This document shows, piece by piece, positions 7,775 through 64,000 of a stretch of 64,000 bases of DNA. The notes under the pieces are model-generated. The model ran no database searches. It saw only the letters and a program-made list of their open reading frames with translations, and was not told the origin of the DNA. The translations under genes and the position numbers were made by a program. Numbering within the stretch: position 1 is the first letter of the stretch; every line of letters starts with the position of its first letter. Source of the stretch: Pseudodesulfovibrio profundus (GTDB lineage Bacteria; Desulfobacterota; Desulfovibrionia; Desulfovibrionales; Desulfovibrionaceae); the NCBI RefSeq assembly GCF_900217235.1, contig NZ_LT907975.1, forward strand, positions 2,269,001 through 2,333,000. Reading direction: 5' to 3'.

Positions 7775-8518
7775 ATGATGGGTAAAGCATGTATTCACTG
7801 GTATATTCTATTGCTTGCGGCCTTTTCGGGTGTTGCCCTGTTTCCATCTAATGGAAATTGTGGAGAGGTACTTGAGGGGTATTCCGCTGCACTGGCTCCC
7901 TATGAGATGGCAAGCGATGGTGCCGTGGATGGCTTGGCGCACGAAATGATGCGGGCTGTGTCCAGAGAGGCCGGTTTCAACTATCGTCCAAAAAAACAAT
8001 TGGGAAATGCTATCGCCGGTATTCCTCCTTGTGGGGAAGGGCATATGCTGCTTGCAGTCGAGTCTCTGGAAGTGGCTCCGTGCTGGGAGCGACTGGGCCC
8101 GGTTTTCACGACGGCGCAAGTCGTTGTCGGCTTGAAGAGAACGCCTCTACGCTCAGTACGGGACGTGCGAGGGAAACGGGTGGCGCTTGTTCGAGCCTCT
8201 TCGTTTGAGCCTGCGCCAACACTAAGTAATGTCGTACTGTATCGAACTGAACAGTATGAGGATTCTCTCCGATTACTGGTGTTGGGCAAGGTTGATTATG
8301 TAATAGGATCACAAGTGGGCATCCAGTGGGCCGCCGGGCAAATGGGGGCGGTCAGCAAAGCCCTCGGAACGCCGTTGGAACTTGGTCGTGAAGAAGTAAC
8401 CGTCTATATTTCCATGGATTCTGTTATCGCTGAAAAAAGGGGGTTGCTCCAAAAGTCGCTGATCCGTGCCATGGAAAAGGGTGTTTTTTTGGAAATATTA
8501 CGAAAATATGGTCTATAA
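7775..8518 (+). CDS. Periplasmic solute-binding protein (family 3-like)
   Basis: A 247-residue protein with an N-terminal export signal (HWYILLLAAFSGVALF). The remainder resembles the amino-acid-type SBP_bac_3 fold: LAPYEMASDGAVDGLAHEMM at the first lobe, then RSVRDVRGKRVALVRASS, and LLVLGKVDYVIGSQVG at the hinge return. No ABC permease or ATPase is nearby. It lies 91 bp upstream of a sensor kinase on the same strand, so a ligand-presenting role for that kinase is plausible. The ligand is unknown. The start lacks a strong ribosome site; 7778 is equally possible. Confidence 0.7.
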   Translation: MMGKACIHWYILLLAAFSGVALFPSNGNCGEVLEGYSAALAPYEMASDGAVDGLAHEMMRAVSREAGFNYRPKKQLGNAIAGIPPCGEGHMLLAVESLEVAPCWERLGPVFTTAQVVVGLKRTPLRSVRDVRGKRVALVRASSFEPAPTLSNVVLYRTEQYEDSLRLLVLGKVDYVIGSQVGIQWAAGQMGAVSKALGTPLELGREEVTVYISMDSVIAEKRGLLQKSLIRAMEKGVFLEILRKYGL

Positions 8519-8609
8519 CAAGGGTGACATGTGAGAGGTGTTTGTGTAGATTCTTCATAATTGATTGGAATTGCCACAGTTACCGGGATTTTTTCCCGGT
8601 GGGAAACAG

Positions 8610-10541
8610 ATGCCCCAAGACAAACCGAAATATAAACGGCCGTTTTTTACCAACCGTTCCATCTCGCGTGACCTGACCCTCAGTCTGGTAGTCATCGTGT
8701 TGTTGATTGCTACTGCCATGGGGGGCTACATCTACTGGCAGCAGACAGAAGAGATGTGGGCGAACGCAGAGGAAAAGGGTGAAGACACCATCACCAGTGT
8801 TGCGGAGATTCTGGCCGTTCCCATCTGGAACCTGGATTACGACAACGCCCGGCTGATCGGTTCCGTTTATACCCACAATGATGTGGTGCAGGGCATTCGC
8901 ATCTACGGCTCCCGCAATGAAGTCGTGTTCGCCCATGAGAAGTTCTCGGGGAATCAGGCTGATTTCAGCAAGGTGCGATCCATTGTTTTTGAAGGCCGTA
9001 CCATCGGTAGGGCGGAAATCGATTTCACTCTCGCCAAGGACAAGAAGCGACTCAACGAACAGATGTTTGTTTCGTCGATGATCATTGTCGTGGCTATCTC
9101 TGTTATCCTGGCCATCACCGGCCTTTTACTTCGTGTTTTTCTGAATAAACCGCTCCAGGTTCTCCAGCAGGGGATCGCCCGCGTCGCCAAGGGTGACTTC
9201 TCCTATGAATTCGGTGAAGTATACCATGCCGAGTTGTTGGAGATAGCCAAGCGATTCAGGCGCATGTCTGCTGAAATTGAAGCGCGTGAGAAAAAGCTTC
9301 AGGCCATGAACAAAACCCTGCAGGAAGCTGAGGAAAAATATCGCGGTATTTTCGAGAACGCCATCGAAGGCATATTCCAGGCCACGCCTGATGGCGTCTT
9401 GCGCCGTGCGAATCCGGCCATGGCACGCATCTTCGGTTATGATTCCCTCGATGAATTTCTGGCTAATGTCCGATCTCTTGGTTCGCGGGTCATGGTCAAT
9501 CCCGAATCCATGCAGGACTTTTACGAGCATGTGCGCGAGCAAGGGGAAGTGAAGCGGTTCGAGGCCGAGTATTACCGTCGTGACGGCAAGACGATCTGGG
9601 GTGCGCTCAATGCCCGGGCTATCTACAACGAGAATAAGGAACTTATTTTCATTGAGGGCATTCTTGAAGACATCACGGACCGCAAAAAGGCCGAGCATGA
9701 TCTTGCCGACTTGAACCGGCACCTTGAGCAGTTGGTCCGTGAACGGACAGAGGACCTCGTCAACAAGGCCCGTGAATTGGAAGACGCCAACCAGCGCTTG
9801 CGTGAACTGGATGAAATGAAGTCGGCATTCCTTTCGTCCGTGTCCCATGAATTGCGCACACCGCTTACCTCGATCCTTGGTTTTTCAAAGCTGCTGCACA
9901 AGGATTTCAAAAAGAACTTCATGCCCCTGGCCAAGAACGACGATCTTCTTGTCCGCAGGGGTAATCGTATCCGCGAGAACCTGACGATCATCAGCCACGA
10001 AGGGGAGCGACTGACGCGCCTTATCAATGATGTACTTGATCTCAACAAGATCGAATCCGGTCGGATGGGTTGGCGCGATGAGCCTATCAACATGGCCGAT
10101 ACCATTGAAATGGCTGTTCAGGCGGTCAAGGGCATGTTCTCCGGCAACTCTCATATTGATCTGATTACAGACGTGGACCATGATCTGCCGTTGATAGTTG
10201 CTGATCCGGATCGAATGCAACAGGTGCTTATCAACCTGCTGAACAATGCTTCCAAGTTCACGGACGAGGGCAGTGTTGTGGTTCGGGCCTTCCCCCGGTT
10301 CGGGCAGGTACGTGTGGAAGTCACGGATACGGGATCAGGTATTGCTACGGAAGATCAGGCACAGATATTCGAGAAGTTCCATCAGACTCGAAATGACACC
10401 ATGGAAGAAAAACCCAAGGGTACTGGTCTGGGGCTCACCATCTGTCGCGAAATCGTGGAACACTACGGTGGCAGGATCTGGGTCGAGTCTGAAATCGGCG
10501 TAGGGTCCACCTTCATCTTCACCATTCCCGCTACATCCTAA
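8610..10541 (+). CDS. Membrane sensor histidine kinase (HAMP-PAS-HisKA-HATPase)
   Basis: About 643 residues. TM1 lies at about 22-40, a periplasmic sensor region of about 110 residues follows, then TM2 at 154-174, HAMP, a coiled coil, PAS (EKYRGIFENAIEGIFQ onwards, about 242-365), a second coiled coil, HisKA with SVSHELRTPLTSILGFS (His413) and a complete HATPase: N-box NLLNNASKFT, G1 DTGSGI, G2 GTGLGL. It is a catalytically complete inner-membrane kinase with no receiver domain. The ATG at 8610 has GGTGGGA upstream and beats the in-frame TTG at 8565. It follows a solute-binding protein gene. No response regulator is adjacent, so the target is unknown. Confidence 0.9.
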   Translation: MPQDKPKYKRPFFTNRSISRDLTLSLVVIVLLIATAMGGYIYWQQTEEMWANAEEKGEDTITSVAEILAVPIWNLDYDNARLIGSVYTHNDVVQGIRIYGSRNEVVFAHEKFSGNQADFSKVRSIVFEGRTIGRAEIDFTLAKDKKRLNEQMFVSSMIIVVAISVILAITGLLLRVFLNKPLQVLQQGIARVAKGDFSYEFGEVYHAELLEIAKRFRRMSAEIEAREKKLQAMNKTLQEAEEKYRGIFENAIEGIFQATPDGVLRRANPAMARIFGYDSLDEFLANVRSLGSRVMVNPESMQDFYEHVREQGEVKRFEAEYYRRDGKTIWGALNARAIYNENKELIFIEGILEDITDRKKAEHDLADLNRHLEQLVRERTEDLVNKARELEDANQRLRELDEMKSAFLSSVSHELRTPLTSILGFSKLLHKDFKKNFMPLAKNDDLLVRRGNRIRENLTIISHEGERLTRLINDVLDLNKIESGRMGWRDEPINMADTIEMAVQAVKGMFSGNSHIDLITDVDHDLPLIVADPDRMQQVLINLLNNASKFTDEGSVVVRAFPRFGQVRVEVTDTGSGIATEDQAQIFEKFHQTRNDTMEEKPKGTGLGLTICREIVEHYGGRIWVESEIGVGSTFIFTIPATS

Positions 10542-56467: not shown

Positions 56468-56505
56468 AAAAGCTGGGGGCCGTTAAACGCCTCCAGCTTT
56501 TTTTT
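56468..56505 (+). terminator. Terminator of the S24 regulator gene
   Basis: Arms AAAGCTGG/CCAGCTTT with inner GGGC/GCCT, followed by T8. Confidence 0.92.
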
Positions 56506-56822: not shown

Positions 56823-58142
56823 ATGGGTTGGAAACGGTTGGAAGAGGGAAGCTACTCTAACAAGTGGAGTGGAAGGTTCGTCATTGCCTTCATATATCCT
56901 GCAGGGGTGGCGATATGGTGGTTGAGCATGCTGCTCGCTTTGAGTTTTGGTGCCATCTTCGTCACATCAACCAACTCTCAAGCCGTTTCCCCGAAAGCGC
57001 CCCTTCGCCTATATCTTGATGTGGACCTGACCGGAGCACGGGCATCCGGTGTGGCCATTGAACAGGGCGTACGAACAGCCTTGGCCCAGGACGGAGGCCG
57101 TTTCGGGGATCGTCCGGTGCAACTGGTGGTACTGGATAATCACGGCAACTCTTCCCGCAGTCTGGCGAATCTGAAGCAATTTCAAACTGACCCCAACGGG
57201 TTGGCTATTATCGGTGGTCAACACTCGGCTCCTTTACTCGCGCATCGGAATTACATCAATGATAACAAAATTTTGATGCTTGTTCCGTGGGCGACAGCTG
57301 CTCCAATTACACGTCCCAAGGAGCAAAATAATTGGATATTTCGCCTCTCCATCGATGACCAAATGGTTGGCGAGGCTCTGGTAGGCCGTGCTGTGGATGA
57401 GAGAGGATTTTCCCGCCTCGCCTTGCTGCTGGAGGAGAGCGATTGGGGCAAGTCCAATTTCCACCGAATGAACGACAGCCTCAAGGATCGAGGGTTGGTT
57501 CCGGTCAGCACCTCCTATCTCGCCTGGGGGGTGTCGGTCCCATCGGCAAATATTTTGCTGCGCGAAATATACAGGTCAGGAGCAGACGCCATCCTCATGG
57601 ATGCAACTGCCCAGGAAGAGTTGGCTGTTTTGCAGGCAATGCTCAATCAGCCGGAAGACGAGCGCCTCCCTGTGATCAGTCACTGGAGAGTGACGGGTGT
57701 CGACGTATCCGGAGCCCTGCCTCATCATGCGCGAAAAAAACTGGATTTGGAGTTCGTCCAGACACGTTTTTCGTTTCTGGACATGGAACAGGGCAGTTTG
57801 GGCAGGCAGGTTTTTGAGCAAGCGCAGACGCTGTTCCCTGACATAAAGCGTCCCAGCGATATCACGCCGCCCAATGGGTTCACCCATGCCTACGACATAA
57901 CCAGAATTTTGCAGGCAGCTGTCAGGCAGAGTGGATTGACAGGCGATGTGGCCCAGGATCGTGCCGCGGTCCGTGCTGCCCTGGAAAACCTTGGTGAGCC
58001 GGTGGAGGGTCTCATAAAAGTTTATCGCAAACCTTTTGCTCCGTTTGATGCAGAATCTACTGACGGACATGAAGCCCTGAACTTGAACGATTATACCTTT
58101 GGAAGGTTTAACGAGCATGACGCAATCATCCTCTCCCGATAA
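56823..58142 (+). CDS. Branched-chain-type solute-binding protein linked to a sensor kinase
   Basis: About 439 residues with an N-terminal membrane segment (AIWWLSMLLALSFGAIF), which may be an uncleaved anchor. The rest is a type I periplasmic-binding (Peripla_BP_6/LivJ-like) fold: LRLYLDVDLTGARASGVAIE, LAIIGGQHSAPLLAHRNYI, then WIFRLSIDDQMVGEALVGRA and FTHAYDITRILQAAV. No ABC transporter genes are near. It overlaps the kinase gene by 26 bp, so it probably presents a ligand to that kinase. GGAGGCGGGC precedes ATG 56823; 56805 is also in frame. Confidence 0.85.
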   Translation: MGWKRLEEGSYSNKWSGRFVIAFIYPAGVAIWWLSMLLALSFGAIFVTSTNSQAVSPKAPLRLYLDVDLTGARASGVAIEQGVRTALAQDGGRFGDRPVQLVVLDNHGNSSRSLANLKQFQTDPNGLAIIGGQHSAPLLAHRNYINDNKILMLVPWATAAPITRPKEQNNWIFRLSIDDQMVGEALVGRAVDERGFSRLALLLEESDWGKSNFHRMNDSLKDRGLVPVSTSYLAWGVSVPSANILLREIYRSGADAILMDATAQEELAVLQAMLNQPEDERLPVISHWRVTGVDVSGALPHHARKKLDLEFVQTRFSFLDMEQGSLGRQVFEQAQTLFPDIKRPSDITPPNGFTHAYDITRILQAAVRQSGLTGDVAQDRAAVRAALENLGEPVEGLIKVYRKPFAPFDAESTDGHEALNLNDYTFGRFNEHDAIILSR

Positions 58143-60306
58143 TGGCATGGAAGTTCTGGAGAAAACGCAGAAGGAATCACAATCGTCGTTTTCCCGGCTG
58201 TTCAGTCGTTTCCTGTTGGCCTTCTTTGTGGTTCAGGTTGTTGTAGGCGGTGCCGTTATTATTTTTGTTATCGGTAGCGAAATGTCCGCCATGCAGAAGG
58301 AAGGAGTGCGCAAGGAGCTGGAGAGCCATCGGCATGTCGTGGAATCGTATCTGGAAAATCGCGTATCCTTCCTGGCAGAATATGCAAAGGCACCAGCCCT
58401 GGTGGCAGGGGTTCTGAATCCGGACGATCAACTGGCGAATACGGTTGATCAGTTGGAGTCGCTGGCCATGATGAATAAGAGTGTCCGGTTTGCGCTGCAG
58501 GATTTTCAGGGAAGCATTGTTTATTCCAATTGGCTTTTCCGAAATGACACCCCTTCCGCTGATTTTCAGCGTTTGATGCAGGGCGATCAGGATCACACCG
58601 TGACCATCATTGAAGCCCGAGAAGGGGCTGTGGAGGGCTGGTACTGGAAGATCAGTGTTCCGGTCTTCTATCATGATCAGCCAGAGGGAGTCCTCTCTGC
58701 GTATATTCCCATTCACCTGCAAGATATTATGGGAACGAATGGAGAAAATCTGCGCCTGACGTTGAAGTTCGCCGATAGCGCCGTAGTCTCATACGGGACT
58801 GCTGAAGAACCGGTTGTCTCTATGGAAACAACCACTGTTTACCCCGAAATCACCCTCCAGCAGGAAGTGAGTCAGGCTGTCGTCTATAATCGATTGAAAT
58901 ACCTGATCACAGTGCTGACCCTGTCTTTTATCGGGTGTACGGGCATGGTCCTGTTCGTAGTCCATCGGATGGGCAAGCAGATGTTGCTGGTCCCCCATGA
59001 GCGACTGGAAACTCTGCGCGATGAGCTTGAAAAGGAAGTGGAAGCCCAAACCGCTGATCTGAAGATGCGGACGGTGCAACTCTCCATTGAGATTCGGGAA
59101 CGGCGCGAGGCGGAAATCGAAGCGCGGGAAACCGGCCAGCTGGTTTCTGCTTTGCTGGAAGGTATCGGGGCCGGGTTTTATATCATCAACCCGAAAACCC
59201 AGCAGATTATTCGTTCAAATGCGGTCATACACAAACTGTTTGGCCTTTCACCGTGGCAACTGTCTCAACGTGAGTGCACGGAAGCTTTCGGCAACTATTC
59301 TCAGACAATGATTGGCCTGGCCTGTCCTGAAACCGTTAGTAGCGAAACGTACATGGAAGGTGTGGCTCGACATGTCGATGGTCACTCGTTCCCCATAGCC
59401 CGCTATCTGGTGCCGGTGGAGATTCGCGGCGAGGAGCATGTCGGCGTTATCGTGCTGGACATCACGGACCGCAAAAACCTCGAACGTCGGCTCAATGTGG
59501 CCCAGAAGCTTGAATCCATCGGCGAGCTGGCATCGGGTATCGCACACGAAATCAATACACCTATCCAGTATGTCGGAGACAGCATCCGTTTTGTTCAGGA
59601 AGCTGCAGAAGACATCATCTCCATTCTGGAGGCCGAAGGAAAACTCATTGCTCGTTGCAGGGAAGACGGGAAGTACCCTGACCTTATCGAGGAAATTGAA
59701 GAGTCGTGGGACGATGCCGACCTGGAATTCATTGTGGAAGAAATCCCCAAGGCCTGCACCAGAGCTCTTGAGGGGACCGACAGAGTGGCGGTGATCGTCC
59801 GGGCCATGAAAAATTTCGCGCATCCCGGAACCGAGGGAATGTCCTCGCTTGATGTCAACGATTCCCTTGAGAATACCATTTTAGTCTCAAAGAACGAATG
59901 GAAATACGTGGCTGAAATCGAGAAGGATTTTGAATTTGTGCCCACGGTGAAGTGCATGCCGGGAGACATCAATCAGGTATTTCTCAATGTTCTGGTCAAT
60001 GCGGCCCATGCGGTTGGAGATGTGGTGAAGAATTCCGGTGACAAAGGGACGATCACCCTCTCCACACGGGAGGAAGGGGATATGGTGCTCATCAGTATCA
60101 GTGACACCGGTACAGGTATCCCGGAAGCAATTAGAGAAAAAATATTTGATCCGTTCTTCACCACCAAGGAGGTGGGCAGGGGAACTGGTCAGGGGCTGGC
60201 CATCGTTCACGACATAGTGGTTGAACGGCATGGGGGCTCCATCGATATTGAAACAGAAGAAGGAAAAGGGACGACGTTCAAAATACGTCTTCCTGCCAAT
60301 AAGTAA
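58117..60306 (+). CDS. Membrane sensor histidine kinase (PAS-HisKA-HATPase)
   Basis: 729 residues. TM1 is at about 36-60 ([20 protein letters not shown]), a periplasmic sensor of about 200 residues follows, TM2 is at about 262-285, then a coiled coil, PAS ([20 protein letters not shown]), HisKA with [20 protein letters not shown] (His477) and a complete ATPase ([28 protein letters not shown]). No receiver domain. It overlaps the solute-binding protein gene and is followed 10 bp later by a REC-HDOD gene, its likely target. Confidence 0.93.
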
Positions 60307-60316
60307 TGAGCGTGCT

Positions 60317-61531
60317 ATGAAAAAGAAACATACCGTATTGTTTGTTGATGACGAGCAGAGTGCCCTGGATGGGTTCAGAACGATGATGCATTCTGTCCGT
60401 AAGGAGGTGAAGTGCTTCTTTGCGCCAAGCGGTCCCGAGGGTCTGGAGCTGTTGCAAAAGCAGTCTGTGGACGTGGTGATTGCAGACATGCGAATGCCGG
60501 GAATGGATGGTGCCGAGTTCCTGTCGCGCGTGACCAGACTGTATCCGGGGACCATACGTATCGTCCTGTCCGGATATTCCGACAATCCGTCACTGTTCAA
60601 ATCAACCCGCGTTGCCCACCAGTTTTTGACCAAACCGTGCAACTCGGAAAAAATTATCGAAACCATCCGCAAGGTGACAGCCCTCAATGATGTCTTCGTG
60701 AACGAAAATGTGAGGAAGACTGTGGCCAAGTTGGATTCACTGCCTGTCCTGCCTGATCGGTTGGCGGATCTGTCTGCCGAATTGGATTCACCTGATCCGA
60801 ATCTCAAGAGAATAAGTCAGTTGGTTGAGTTGGATACGGGCATGTCCACCACCTTGATGAAGGTGGCCAATTCATCCTTCTTCGGGTTCTTTGAAAATGT
60901 GACCACACCATCGCGGGCAGTGACGCTGCTTGGTTCGGAAACAGTCAGGGGCCTGGTGCTGAGAGAGCACCTTATTGACAAGATAGATCTGACAGGTCTT
61001 GAGAACTACTCCGTGGAGAAGCTCTGGCGGCATACCCTGGAAACGGGATATTGCGCCAAAGCCATCGCCACGCATGAAAAAGCCGACAAGAAATTTATCG
61101 ATTCATGCTTTCTTGCTGGAATTTTGCACGATGTAGGTAAACTGGCTCTCCTTACCAAAATGAAGGATGTGTATGAGCCTGTCCTTGAATGCGTCAGAGA
61201 AGAGGACGGCCCCATCCGAAAGTGTGAACTGAAAAAGCTGAATGTCGATCATGCCATGGTTGGTGCGTACCTCCTCGGATTATGGGGATTCAAGGAAGAC
61301 ATAGTCAAAGGAGTCTTTCTGCATCATCGTCCACAGCACGGAGGCAAGGGGTTGACCGTGCCGCTGGTGGTTCATGTCGCAAACACCCTTCAGCATGAGA
61401 CACGCGAGTTTACTTCGGATGGGTATGCGCATTCATCGCTGAACACGTTCTGGTTGGCTGAACAGGGATTGAACCGGCGTGTCGACGACTGGCGTGCCGC
61501 ATGTATTGAAAAGTGGAGTGCAAATGACTAA
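60317..61531 (+). CDS. Response regulator REC-HDOD
   Basis: 404 residues. REC (about 1-120): VLFVDDEQSALDGF supplies the acidic pair, VVIADMRMPGMDG the phospho-Asp, and FLTKPC the Lys. The HDOD domain (about 140-350) has LDTGMSTTLMKVANSSFFGF, ILHDVGKLALL and the H-x-x-V motif VDHAMVGAYLLGLWG. HDOD domains usually bind partners rather than cleave nucleotides, despite an HD-like pair. Its last codons overlap the next gene by 8 bp. Confidence 0.93.
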   Translation: MKKKHTVLFVDDEQSALDGFRTMMHSVRKEVKCFFAPSGPEGLELLQKQSVDVVIADMRMPGMDGAEFLSRVTRLYPGTIRIVLSGYSDNPSLFKSTRVAHQFLTKPCNSEKIIETIRKVTALNDVFVNENVRKTVAKLDSLPVLPDRLADLSAELDSPDPNLKRISQLVELDTGMSTTLMKVANSSFFGFFENVTTPSRAVTLLGSETVRGLVLREHLIDKIDLTGLENYSVEKLWRHTLETGYCAKAIATHEKADKKFIDSCFLAGILHDVGKLALLTKMKDVYEPVLECVREEDGPIRKCELKKLNVDHAMVGAYLLGLWGFKEDIVKGVFLHHRPQHGGKGLTVPLVVHVANTLQHETREFTSDGYAHSSLNTFWLAEQGLNRRVDDWRAACIEKWSAND

Positions 61532-62645
61532 ACGCCGTAAAGTCCTCTTCGTTGATGATGAGCAGAATATACTGGATACCTTTCGGGCTTCCCTTCGCAA
61601 ACGCTTCAAGGTCGAGACAGCCCTTGGGCCGCTGGAAGGGGTGGAAAAAATCAAAACGTCCGGCCCCTATGCCGTGGTGGTTTCCGATCTGAAAATGCCG
61701 GATATGGACGGCATCACCTTTCTTTCCAAGGTACAGGAACTGTCGCCCGATTCGGTCAGGATCATGCTGACAGGACATGCTGATCTCAACTCCGCAATCT
61801 CGGCTGTCAACGACGGGGCTGTCTTTCGGTTTCTAACCAAGCCGAGTCCGATGGAAGTGATGATCCGCACTCTGGAAATCGCGACCAAGCAGTATTCTCT
61901 TGTGGTGGCAGAGCGTGAGTTGTTGCGTGGCACACTCCGGGGGTGCATCAAGGTGCTGACGGATATTCTCAGCCTGGTCAATCCTGAAGCCTTTGGTCGC
62001 AGCGAGCGAGTCAGGAGGTTGTCCGATTACGTTGGTAAACACCTCAATCTCAAGCATCAACTGTTCCTCGACCTGGCAGCCATGCTGTGCCAATTGGGTT
62101 GTGTCACCCTCACTGATACCGTCATGAACAAGGTGTACGAAGGCAAGGAATTGTCGGCGGAAGAACAGCAGATTTACGCCATGCACCCCTCGATTACCGC
62201 CGGAATGCTCTCCCAGATTCCACGGATGGATAAAGTCTCGGAAATTATCCTGAACCAGAATGTGAGTCTGGCTGACGATCCGACTCTTTCAGTGGAAGCG
62301 CGCGTCCTGAAAGCCTGTCTCGATTATGACTCACTGATCCAGAACGGTATGGAAAAACAGGATGCCATTGATGAGTTGCGCAAACGGGAAGGGGTGTATG
62401 ATTCCAAGGTTATTGACGTGCTCGAAAGGGGCACTGCCGGAGAGGAAGGATACGTCCGAAGGGAATTGCTGCTGTCGGAACTGCGCCCACGCATGATTTT
62501 GGAAGAGGCGCTCTGGAGCACGGACAAGGTCCATATCATGGCGGAGGGTACAGAGGTGACGGAAACGGCACTCATGCGAATTGCCAACTTCATGAAAGCC
62601 AAGCGCTTGCCTGAAACCATTAGGGCATTGGTACCTATTGAGTGA
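61524..62645 (+). CDS. Response regulator with degenerate HD-GYP-like domain
   Basis: 373 residues. REC (about 1-120) is complete: VLFVDDEQNILDTF, VVVSDLKMPDMDG, FLTKPS. The second half follows the RpfG/HD-GYP pattern (NPEAFGRSERVRRLSDYVGK, then LFLDLAAMLCQLGCVTL and IYAMHPSITAGML), but the metal-binding HD of LLHDIGK is CQLGC and no GYP is found, so c-di-GMP hydrolysis is unlikely. GGAGTGCAA precedes ATG 61524. It completes the four-gene cassette. Confidence 0.88.
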   Translation: MTKRRKVLFVDDEQNILDTFRASLRKRFKVETALGPLEGVEKIKTSGPYAVVVSDLKMPDMDGITFLSKVQELSPDSVRIMLTGHADLNSAISAVNDGAVFRFLTKPSPMEVMIRTLEIATKQYSLVVAERELLRGTLRGCIKVLTDILSLVNPEAFGRSERVRRLSDYVGKHLNLKHQLFLDLAAMLCQLGCVTLTDTVMNKVYEGKELSAEEQQIYAMHPSITAGMLSQIPRMDKVSEIILNQNVSLADDPTLSVEARVLKACLDYDSLIQNGMEKQDAIDELRKREGVYDSKVIDVLERGTAGEEGYVRRELLLSELRPRMILEEALWSTDKVHIMAEGTEVTETALMRIANFMKAKRLPETIRALVPIE

Positions 62646-62815
62646 TCGCCGGATTCTCCTCGGCCAAATATAGCATGATTAGGGTAGGGTCTCTTTTTGC
62701 GCCTTGTACGCCTGCTTCAGTCTCGTTCAGTCATCATTAGATAAAGACATGTGATTCCTATTCCTGTATTGAGACCTCTCTTCAACCAACCATGAACGGA
62801 GTAGAGGGGACAGAT

Positions 62816-64000
62816 ATGAGCGAATCAGCAAAAATCCTCGTGGTGGAGGACAGCCGATTCTTTGCCTCGTTGCTGACACAACAAATACAGGATGGGCTTG
62901 GGCTGGCTGTGGATTGGGTGTCCACCTACAGTGAAGCGTGCTCCATTATCGATACCCGTAAGGATGAGTACCTCCTTGCCCTGCTCGATGCCAATCTACC
63001 GGATGCGCCAAACGGAGAAGCAATAGAATACGCTTGTAAAATGGGGCTCCCTGCCATTGTTTTTACCAGTGGTATTGATGATACCATGCGCAATCGCTTT
63101 CTTTCCTGGAACCTGCTTGATTATATACTCAAGGATTCCGGCAACTCCATGGAGGTCATGCTGGACTCCATCAGTCGGGCCATCAGCAATCGGCACATCA
63201 AAGTCGCAGTGGTCGAAGACTCATCCACCACGCGGGAAGCAGTGAGAAGAATGCTCCAGTCCCAGCTGTTTCAGGTTTTTGAGGCCGAGAACGGGCAGAA
63301 GGCTCTTGAACTGCTGGAGGCCAATCCCGATATCAAGCTTGTGGTCACGGACTATGACATGCCCGTCATGGACGGCTTCGAGTTGATTCGTGCCGTGCGT
63401 CAGAATCATTCACGGGATGAACTGGGTATCATCGGTATGTCGGCGAGCGGCGACCCTCTGCTCTCCGCTCAGCTCCTCAAGTCCGGCGCTGACGACTATG
63501 TCAGCAAGCCGTTTTTGGTGGAGGAGTTTATCTGCCGGGTGAATAAATCCATAGAGATGCTGCAACACATCGAAACCATACGAGAATTGTCGTATCGAGA
63601 TCCTCTGACCGGATTGCGTAATCGACGGTATTTCTTTGAAAACGCTCCCGGGTTTATCGAGTCCTGTCAAAGCGAAGGCGTAGCCTGTTCTCTTGCGATG
63701 ATGGATGTGGACTTTTTCAAGAGCGTCAACGACAGCTTTGGTCATGATGGTGGTGATGCTGTTTTGAAACTTCTTTCGCACCTGTTCAAAGAGCATTTTG
63801 GCGAAAACTCCATAATCAGCCGCTTTGGGGGCGAAGAGTTTTGCGTACTTGTCCGGCATGAAAGCGGGGCGAACGCCAGTGAGTTGTTCGAGCCGCTCCG
63901 TGAGCGCATCGAGCGGACACCAGCGCTCTATAAGGGGGCGGAACTTCGGGTGACCATATCCATCGGGGTCAGTTCAAGGCAGGATGGTCTGGATGCCATG
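62816..64000 (+). CDS. REC-REC-GGDEF diguanylate cyclase, 3' end cut
   Basis: 395 codons up to the right edge, no stop yet. REC1 (about 1-120): ILVVEDSRFFASLL, ALLDANLPDAP, YILKDS. REC2 (about 125-245): VAVVEDSSTTREAV, LVVTDYDMPVMDG, YVSKPF. The GGDEF domain starts DPLTGLRNRRYFFENA and has an intact SRFGGEEFCVL, so it should make c-di-GMP; no RxxD inhibitory site precedes it. GAGGGG lies before ATG 62816; an in-frame ATG at 62792 is weaker. It is the third signalling output after the kinase cassette, 170 bp downstream. Confidence 0.93.
   Translation, partial: MSESAKILVVEDSRFFASLLTQQIQDGLGLAVDWVSTYSEACSIIDTRKDEYLLALLDANLPDAPNGEAIEYACKMGLPAIVFTSGIDDTMRNRFLSWNLLDYILKDSGNSMEVMLDSISRAISNRHIKVAVVEDSSTTREAVRRMLQSQLFQVFEAENGQKALELLEANPDIKLVVTDYDMPVMDGFELIRAVRQNHSRDELGIIGMSASGDPLLSAQLLKSGADDYVSKPFLVEEFICRVNKSIEMLQHIETIRELSYRDPLTGLRNRRYFFENAPGFIESCQSEGVACSLAMMDVDFFKSVNDSFGHDGGDAVLKLLSHLFKEHFGENSIISRFGGEEFCVLVRHESGANASELFEPLRERIERTPALYKGAELRVTISIGVSSRQDGLDAM

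Follow-up and report, generated by a model that had tools for sequence, protein, structure and literature searches.

A solute-binding protein paired with a dCACHE-type sensor kinase in Pseudodesulfovibrio profundus: a probable LuxP/LuxQ-like receptor of a different family

About ten sensor kinases that are activated by a solute-binding protein (SBP) have been characterised (PMC9602780; the papers cited by PMC number are drawn on here in excerpt). In LuxP/LuxQ, the autoinducer-2 receptor of Vibrio, it is the partner protein, and not the PDC domains of the kinase, that binds the signal (PMC8534201); among Cache domains, LuxQ has been listed as having no ligand and 5ERE as a dCache that holds cytosine (PMC8694187). 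In TorT/TorS and BctC/BctE, too, a periplasmic binding protein activates the kinase, as is proposed here for a locus of Pseudodesulfovibrio profundus. The window analysed is a stretch of 64,000 nucleotides (contig NZ_LT907975.1, positions 2,269,001 to 2,333,000, forward strand), and at 56823-62645 it carries, closely packed and without transporter genes, the genes for an SBP, a membrane sensor histidine kinase, a response regulator with receiver and HDOD domains (REC-HDOD) and a second one with a receiver and a degenerate HD-GYP domain, in that order (Table 1). We consider it probable that the first two form a LuxP/LuxQ-like receptor of a different family, in which the SBP docks on the kinase and the kinase feeds the two response regulators. 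The sensor of TorS is all-helical (PMC8534201) while the one described here is of tandem-PDC type, and BctC is part of a transporter (PMC9602780) whereas no transporter lies beside our SBP. In the open-access literature, judged mostly by listing and abstract start, no paper was recognised as describing this SBP-sensor family. Of the binding-protein families, SBP_bac_3 alone is noted to have been investigated in cyclic di-GMP (c-di-GMP) networks (PMC8846402).

The SBP and kinase genes overlap by 26 bp, a gap of 10 bp separates the kinase gene from that of REC-HDOD, and the two regulator genes overlap by 8 bp. From these spacings, which match the sequence, an earlier sequence-only reading had taken the four genes to be one unit. 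The same genes stand in the same order in five other genomes of the genus (G001, G019, G029, G013 and G014; G and L numbers are our handles for genomes and loci), and the set is therefore more than chance. In G014 an apparent frameshift divides the kinase into two overlapping open reading frames (ORFs; L035:7611-9849). G018 and G023 possess SBP, kinase and HDOD genes, the fourth gene not being there. SBP orthologues of at least 48% identity were found in seven of the 35 other genus genomes searched. In the order at large, 24 other genomes yielded one relative (33%, G049), whose SBP gene precedes one for a hybrid kinase of 1118 aa. In four of the five four-gene genomes, similarity is highest for the fourth gene (72-82% identity versus 48-55% for the SBP), the exception being G013 (47% versus 50%). 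That a gene whose enzyme motifs are mostly lost is the most conserved one in four of five comparisons argues for a real non-catalytic role.

Conserved synteny, which the sequence-only reading had proposed to seek across Desulfovibrionales, does reach beyond this genome, with the four-gene set seen in one genus only and the SBP-kinase core widespread. A scan with an SBP alignment covered 84,980 species, each represented by one genome; 113 relatives were confirmed and 80 kept. By record title these loci belong to 12 phyla (54 to Pseudomonadota, 23 to the other 11, three unassigned); many of the records are metagenome bins, and two genus loci recur among them as Pseudodesulfovibrio sp. (L060, L061). 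The SBP ORF of L060 was missed by ORF picking, so that 79 pairs were scored. The next same-strand gene after the SBP matches the kinase profile in 77 of the 79, and 76 of the 79 gaps measure between -89 and +74 bp. Among 74 following proteins (L060-L062, L065, L086 and L130 omitted) HATPase_c was found in 72 and HisKA in 67, and their variable cytoplasmic parts include REC (15), PAS_9 (11) and Hpt (9). The sensor of L084 is followed by PAS only and that of L129 by CHASE, no kinase domain being found in either. In 39 genomes the SBP profile marked 44 places (E <1e-30) and the sensor profile 46 (E <1e-8); all 42 sensor places below 1e-40 adjoin an SBP and 42 of the 44 SBPs adjoin a sensor, in genomes that were chosen as SBP holders and with a profile made from SBP-adjacent sensors, so that unpaired forms are under-sampled. 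As a unit, the pair of SBP and kinase is real and extends far outside Desulfovibrionales. Within the phylum of P. profundus the family looks sparse under strict search settings, as the SBP profile (E 1e-60) matched two of 296 other genomes and the sensor profile (E 1e-15) none.

The two partners also appear to have diverged together. Over 65 loci the distance correlation is 0.82 between SBP and sensor and 0.68 between SBP and kinase core, and the corresponding partial correlations are 0.63 and 0.07; none of 1000 permutations (63 loci) reached the SBP-sensor value. The 68 neighbour genes collected (same strand, within 150 bp, at least 100 aa, at most one upstream and two downstream per locus, one extra for L068, L060-L062 and L086 omitted) contain receivers (31), HD_5 (six), sigma-54 interaction domains (five), GGDEF (four), SpoIIE (three) and HDOD (three), in a tally that shows 25 of 58 families. 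The pair is followed by an HD-GYP regulator with intact motifs in L066, L068 and L069 and by a REC-HDOD protein in L110.

The SBP of the window matches Peripla_BP_6 in Pfam (E 1.2e-23), and this family, PF13458, is matched by all 75 members of the SBP alignment; ANF_receptor, Peripla_BP_5 and, once, HisG are the others at E up to 0.01. Near-copies, truncated rows, rows of odd length and ORF-picking losses were omitted from the alignment (L060, L076, L086, L089, L096, L097, L098, L104, L113, L115, L121). The AlphaFold2 model has a mean predicted local distance difference test score (pLDDT) of 94 and its best structural match is 4q6w (Z 38.0, root-mean-square deviation 2.8, 356 aligned), by which the protein is a predicted type I binding protein with the fold of branched-chain amino-acid binders. 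Nevertheless, the ligand cannot safely be assumed to be a branched-chain amino acid, since the printed alignment with 4n0q, a leucine-bound structure, shows the family departing from it at motifs taken to be the ligand contacts of LivJ. The neighbour genes were likewise set aside as a guide to the ligand, a GlmS-like enzyme near one Colwellia pair and phosphoglucomutase families in at most four of the 68 being too scattered. No fusion of SBP with sensor and kinase was found: in the 79 scored loci the SBP ORFs reach at most 554 aa, so that none includes the other two parts as well. Among database structures, 5ere (540 residues, from Desulfohalobium retbaense) contains a matching dCACHE domain at entry residues 352-593; phmmer with the SBP of another locus of the P. 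profundus genome (L145) did not list it.

The window kinase contains HATPase_c (Pfam, 3.2e-26) and an H-box-like stretch of 13 residues; HisKA, sought in the same Pfam scan, gave no match. The AlphaFold2 model of its sensor (pLDDT 93.5) matches the tandem-PDC domains of KinD (Z 17.3, 3.2 Å, 191 aligned), DctB (Z 16.2, 2.9 Å, 194 aligned) and, at a lower score, LuxQ 3c38 (Z 13.7, 4.1 Å, 179 aligned), and on this model the periplasmic domain is of the tandem-PDC fold. Pfam dCache_1 is matched by 36 of 76 sensor family members (L060, L086, L098, L121 and L130 omitted), the window row not among them, and phmmer with the N-terminal kinase region against the PDB gave no match. A sensor profile from seven genus rows matches all 78 cognate sensors at similar length with E at most 8.3e-7, in a test that includes three rows of the profile itself and has no negative control.

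Like LuxP/LuxQ, the pair thus combines a binding protein with a kinase whose periplasmic domain is of tandem-PDC type. Unlike it, the sensor has its better fold matches in KinD and DctB, and the outputs are other ones. The SBPs match Peripla_BP_6, ANF_receptor or Peripla_BP_5 and would differ in family from LuxP, which is of the Peripla_BP_4 type. Twenty-four Pfam families are matched by the 76 sensors at E up to 0.1, and the LuxQ-periplasm model, which we take to be in the Pfam library, is not one of them.

Six genomes of the same genus (G020, G008, G026, G004, G015 and G003) have a kinase with a homologous sensor and lack the SBP. Five of these neighbourhoods were searched for an SBP without a match, and G008, a genome 82% complete, is counted among the six without its gene context. 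Fourteen sensor positions are conserved in at least 80% of 83 paired sensors, a set in which L061/L159 and L062/L153 are identical pairs and Colwellia contributes many close rows, so that its percentages are not those of independent sequences. M100, D111, Y185 and E190 are kept in 92-96% of the 83 and lost in all six SBP-less sensors, and L86, L127, D129, G132, G191 and L193 are retained in all six. Among the eight paired sensors of the genus itself, Y185 and E190 are present in all, and M100 and D111 in seven, the exceptions being L100 in the window and E111 in G001. General divergence is no explanation for the loss, since the G020 sensor is as similar to that of the window (39%) as paired sensors are (35-46%). 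On this pattern of conservation the four are likely candidate docking residues; in the sensor model Y185 and E190 sit on either side of a turn that joins two strands, and D111 is part of a helix. A periplasmic domain with no surface compatible with the SBP would have spoken against the sequence-only reading, and a candidate contact surface has emerged from the residues lost where the SBP is absent. Two side observations belong here. The neighbourhood of the SBP-less G020 contains genes that were read by eye as phosphonate genes, and kinases with a homologous sensor and the same output genes, without SBP, occur at L040, L043, L044, L050 and L051.

With these residues as a guide, a course of events can be proposed. 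The SBP would capture a small molecule in the periplasm and would dock on the dCACHE-type domain of the kinase around D111, Y185 and E190; we infer this docking to be physical and dependent on the ligand. It would shift the kinase between active states, and the kinase would in turn control, by phosphotransfer, the phosphorylation of both neighbouring receivers. Once phosphorylated, the REC-degenerate-HD-GYP protein may bind partners, for example c-di-GMP enzymes as described for HnoD (PMC6335343), and REC-HDOD may act likewise by binding or via its retained HD-type site.

Both output proteins carry a receiver domain together with the domain that names them (HDOD 1.9e-48 and Response_reg 3e-20 for the REC-HDOD response regulator; HD_5 1.9e-23 plus Response_reg for the HD-GYP-like protein). 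The acceptor Asp and conserved Lys are D57 and K106 in all eight HDOD orthologues and D55 and K106 in all six of the HD-GYP-like protein, and from these residues both are predicted to be phosphorylatable response regulators. Alignment with three intact HD-GYP regulators shows GH replaced by GR, HDxGK by CQLGC and HHERxDGxGYP by NQNVSLADD, with a deletion of eight columns; the HD pair, the distal His pair and GYP, motifs of the phosphodiesterases, are lost. The 'HP' motif still has its His, an Asp (DYD) is retained further on, and the claim of an HD-GYP fold without its metal ligands, which we take to lie in these columns, holds for most of the motifs and was slightly too strong. In G004, G015 and G003 a second HD-GYP-like gene lies upstream, its motifs likewise being GRS and SQLGC. 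phmmer with the HD region alone found no match.

Kinases acting with a REC and degenerate HD-GYP regulator, as proposed here, are described in HnoK/HnoD of Shewanella and NosK/NosR of Burkholderia, where the input is nitric oxide and no SBP is mentioned in the excerpts (PMC6335343, PMC12570481). HnoD suppresses a phosphodiesterase by direct interaction (PMC6335343), and NosR has been proposed to act on another c-di-GMP enzyme (PMC12570481). The degenerate HD-GYP domain of the window scores 189.8 bits against the NosR model, with a cut-off of 400. Protein binding rather than c-di-GMP hydrolysis, the output that the sequence-only reading had suggested for both regulators, is likely for the degenerate HD-GYP protein and unproven for REC-HDOD, in which seven HD-type residues (H239, H271, D272, K275, H312, H336 and H337) are kept in all eight orthologues. 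REC-HDOD could on the strength of these invariant residues be a metal-dependent phosphohydrolase, with the degenerate HD-GYP protein as its regulatory partner. Of the same domain types, and likened to the two regulators on that ground, are DVU0330 (REC-HDOD) and DVU1181 (REC-HD-GYP) of the related sulfate reducer D. vulgaris. An isolated domain, apparently of DVU0330, showed weak activity on bis(p-nitrophenyl) phosphate, which would favour such an enzymatic output, but none on c-di-GMP or other tested substrates; DVU0330 and DVU1181 were assigned no c-di-GMP activity in the excerpt, and GsmR, another HDOD regulator, was reported there to be without phosphatase and phosphodiesterase activity (PMC4114195). 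Taken together, we regard an enzymatic output as somewhat unlikely.

The output pair is a separate module. When the HD-GYP-like protein, cut to begin at receiver residue 43, was used as the query, 153 of 348 genomes of the order had a match at E <1e-40, some of them perhaps only through intact HD-GYP proteins, since the query includes about 80 receiver residues. REC-HDOD and HD-GYP-like domains occur together, with various kinases, at 18 of 20 fetched places, an HDOD match being absent at L053 and L054. None of the 20 places gave an SBP match at E 1e-3, and the SBP-kinase front end is therefore the special part of the locus described here. REC-GGDEF genes adjoin the SBP in G014, G018 and G023 (L006, L036, L037), and in the window a REC-REC-GGDEF gene (62792-64000) begins after a gap of 146 bp. 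This gene was rejected as a fifth member because of the gap and because it is not conserved in the contexts of the relatives; GGDEF genes beside the SBP in three relatives and after the set in the window make a link to c-di-GMP plausible.

On the input side, the proposed docking has to be weighed against direct sensing, in which the dCACHE domain would detect a ligand of its own and the SBP would be a helper, for instance one that scavenges or carries that compound, delivering or sequestering it, with no signalling complex. dCACHE domains often bind ligands themselves, and the fold relatives DctB and KinD bind small ligands, to judge from their structure titles. From the homologous kinases without SBP in six genomes of the genus it follows that the sensor can work alone; nor are these six independent events, the best tree having three changes, possibly one. 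Four further conserved sensor positions are lost in two to five of the six SBP-less sensors, and the four residues lost in all could form the ligand pocket of the sensor instead of a docking face. Two SBPs (L130 and G641:C11) have no adjoining sensor, and four weak sensor matches (~1e-12 to 1e-13, in four genomes) have no SBP. Without near pairs, the correlation of SBP with sensor drops to 0.56 and that with the core to 0.36. Neighbourhood alone is no proof of docking, since in P. aeruginosa no interaction was seen between three SBPs and the sensor kinases whose genes lie near theirs (PMC11113362). Finally, of 84 positions at which 93% or more of the 75 SBPs agree, the window SBP departs at 14, the most of any row (the next has nine), and its closest orthologue, that of G001, keeps all 14; by these changes it may be re-tuned to another ligand, or drifting and relaxing. 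The SBPs that lack a sensor gave no hint of an interface, L130 differing at only three of the 84 positions.

Except for the last one, these points count against an SBP that docks on the kinase. Nevertheless, direct sensing does not sit well with the near inseparability of strong sensor matches and SBPs in the 39 genomes, with a coevolution of SBP and sensor that exceeds what the kinase core explains, or with the loss of four conserved sensor residues exactly where the SBP is absent, and we hold it to be unlikely.

The sequence-only reading had stressed an SBP tied to a kinase without any ATP-binding cassette (ABC) transporter, and this is borne out across the family: a Liv-type permease, sought by phmmer in 4.6-21.3 kb of DNA per locus, had a match in none of the 80 loci, and ABC ATPases lie 5.7-9.0 kb away in four. 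Permease and ATPase genes in the same operon, as would mark the SBP of an ABC transporter, were not found. As a control, the permeases at L140, L141, L142 and L149 were detected with queries from other loci at E 1e-31 to 1e-100, and that at L148 weakly (1.3e-5); queries and controls all come from the P. profundus genome, so that sensitivity across phyla is not shown by them. That the SBP serves a distant ABC transporter, its adjacency to the kinase only coupling uptake to regulation, would fit the several Liv-type transporter operons of the genome and the branched-chain amino-acid binder fold, yet it is rendered highly improbable by the 0/80 permease matches and by the conservation of SBP with sensor, not with transporter, in records from 12 phyla.

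Table 1. Features of the SBP-kinase locus of P. profundus (feature, position in the window, strand, remarks)
SBP	56823..58142	+	Peripla_BP_6, type I binding-protein fold; without cognate transporter; start codon uncertain (56805, 56823 or later), orthologue starts sitting nearer the signal peptide
Membrane sensor histidine kinase	58117..60306	+	ATG at 58117; transmembrane segment (TM), periplasmic domain of ~210 aa, TM, weak PAS, H-box/HATPase
Sensor construct, kinase residues 24-287	58186..58977	+	TM, tandem-PDC (dCACHE-type) domain, TM
Kinase residue 100	58414..58416	+	Met in 95% of paired sensors, Leu in the window
Kinase D111	58447..58449	+	candidate SBP-contact residue
Kinase Y185	58669..58671	+	candidate SBP-contact residue
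Kinase E190	58684..58686	+	candidate SBP-contact residue
REC-HDOD response regulator	60317..61531	+	Response_reg + HDOD
REC + degenerate HD-GYP response regulator	61524..62645	+	Response_reg + HD_5

Upstream of the set a terminator-like hairpin was noted at 56468-56501; with 11 terminator-like sites found and 6.1 expected, single sites mean little.

Elsewhere in the genome the arrangement does recur, as had been supposed, at places other than the one first named. The example offered by the sequence-only reading, at 7775-10541, turned out to be of another design: a small SBP_bac_3-like protein (SBP_bac_3 only, E 0.032, below the Pfam cut-off) precedes a HAMP-PAS-HisKA kinase, so that both the SBP class and the HAMP and HisKA domains of the kinase differ, and it is possibly a sensor pair of another class. 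At least three other SBP-receptor pairs were found among the twelve PF13458 matches of the genome, the one in the window included. The SBP gene overlaps an sCache kinase gene at L143:4941-8883 and a dCache hybrid kinase gene at L145:2758-6097, and at L147:2314-6104 a Peripla_BP_6 SBP gene overlaps one for an sCache-HAMP-PAS-GGDEF-EAL protein, by which a binding protein is apparently wired straight to a c-di-GMP enzyme. L144 is possibly receptor-coupled, its SBP frame being broken by a stop with a kinase next to it. Liv-type permeases stand beside the SBP matches at L140, L141, L142 and L149. L146:4981-6954 and L149:3814-6277 are apparently two fragments of one Liv-type SBP gene, each adjoining a 355-aa ORF, with identical first 45 residues, that looks transposase-like by eye. 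L148 reads as part of an apparent ribose-type operon, and the PF13458 match of L150 is below the cut-off.

With only about ten SBP-activated kinases characterised (PMC9602780) and neighbourhood having misled before (PMC11113362), the pair is worth attention, the more so as docking is directly testable: many natural pairs and natural SBP-less cases point to specific contact residues. The 37 columns invariant across the 75 SBPs suggest that a single ligand, once found, could account for receptors in the records of a dozen phyla. More tentatively, the family may be an undescribed, phylum-spanning two-protein receptor, a nearly obligate SBP and dCACHE sensor for a common environmental chemical, with D111, Y185 and E190 as docking residues. 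Such a front end would have been plugged into many outputs (REC-HD-GYP, REC-HDOD, REC-SpoIIE, sigma-54 regulators and hybrid phosphorelays); in P. profundus and its relatives in the genus the output would be mainly by protein binding, and the SBP of the window may be one that is changing its ligand.

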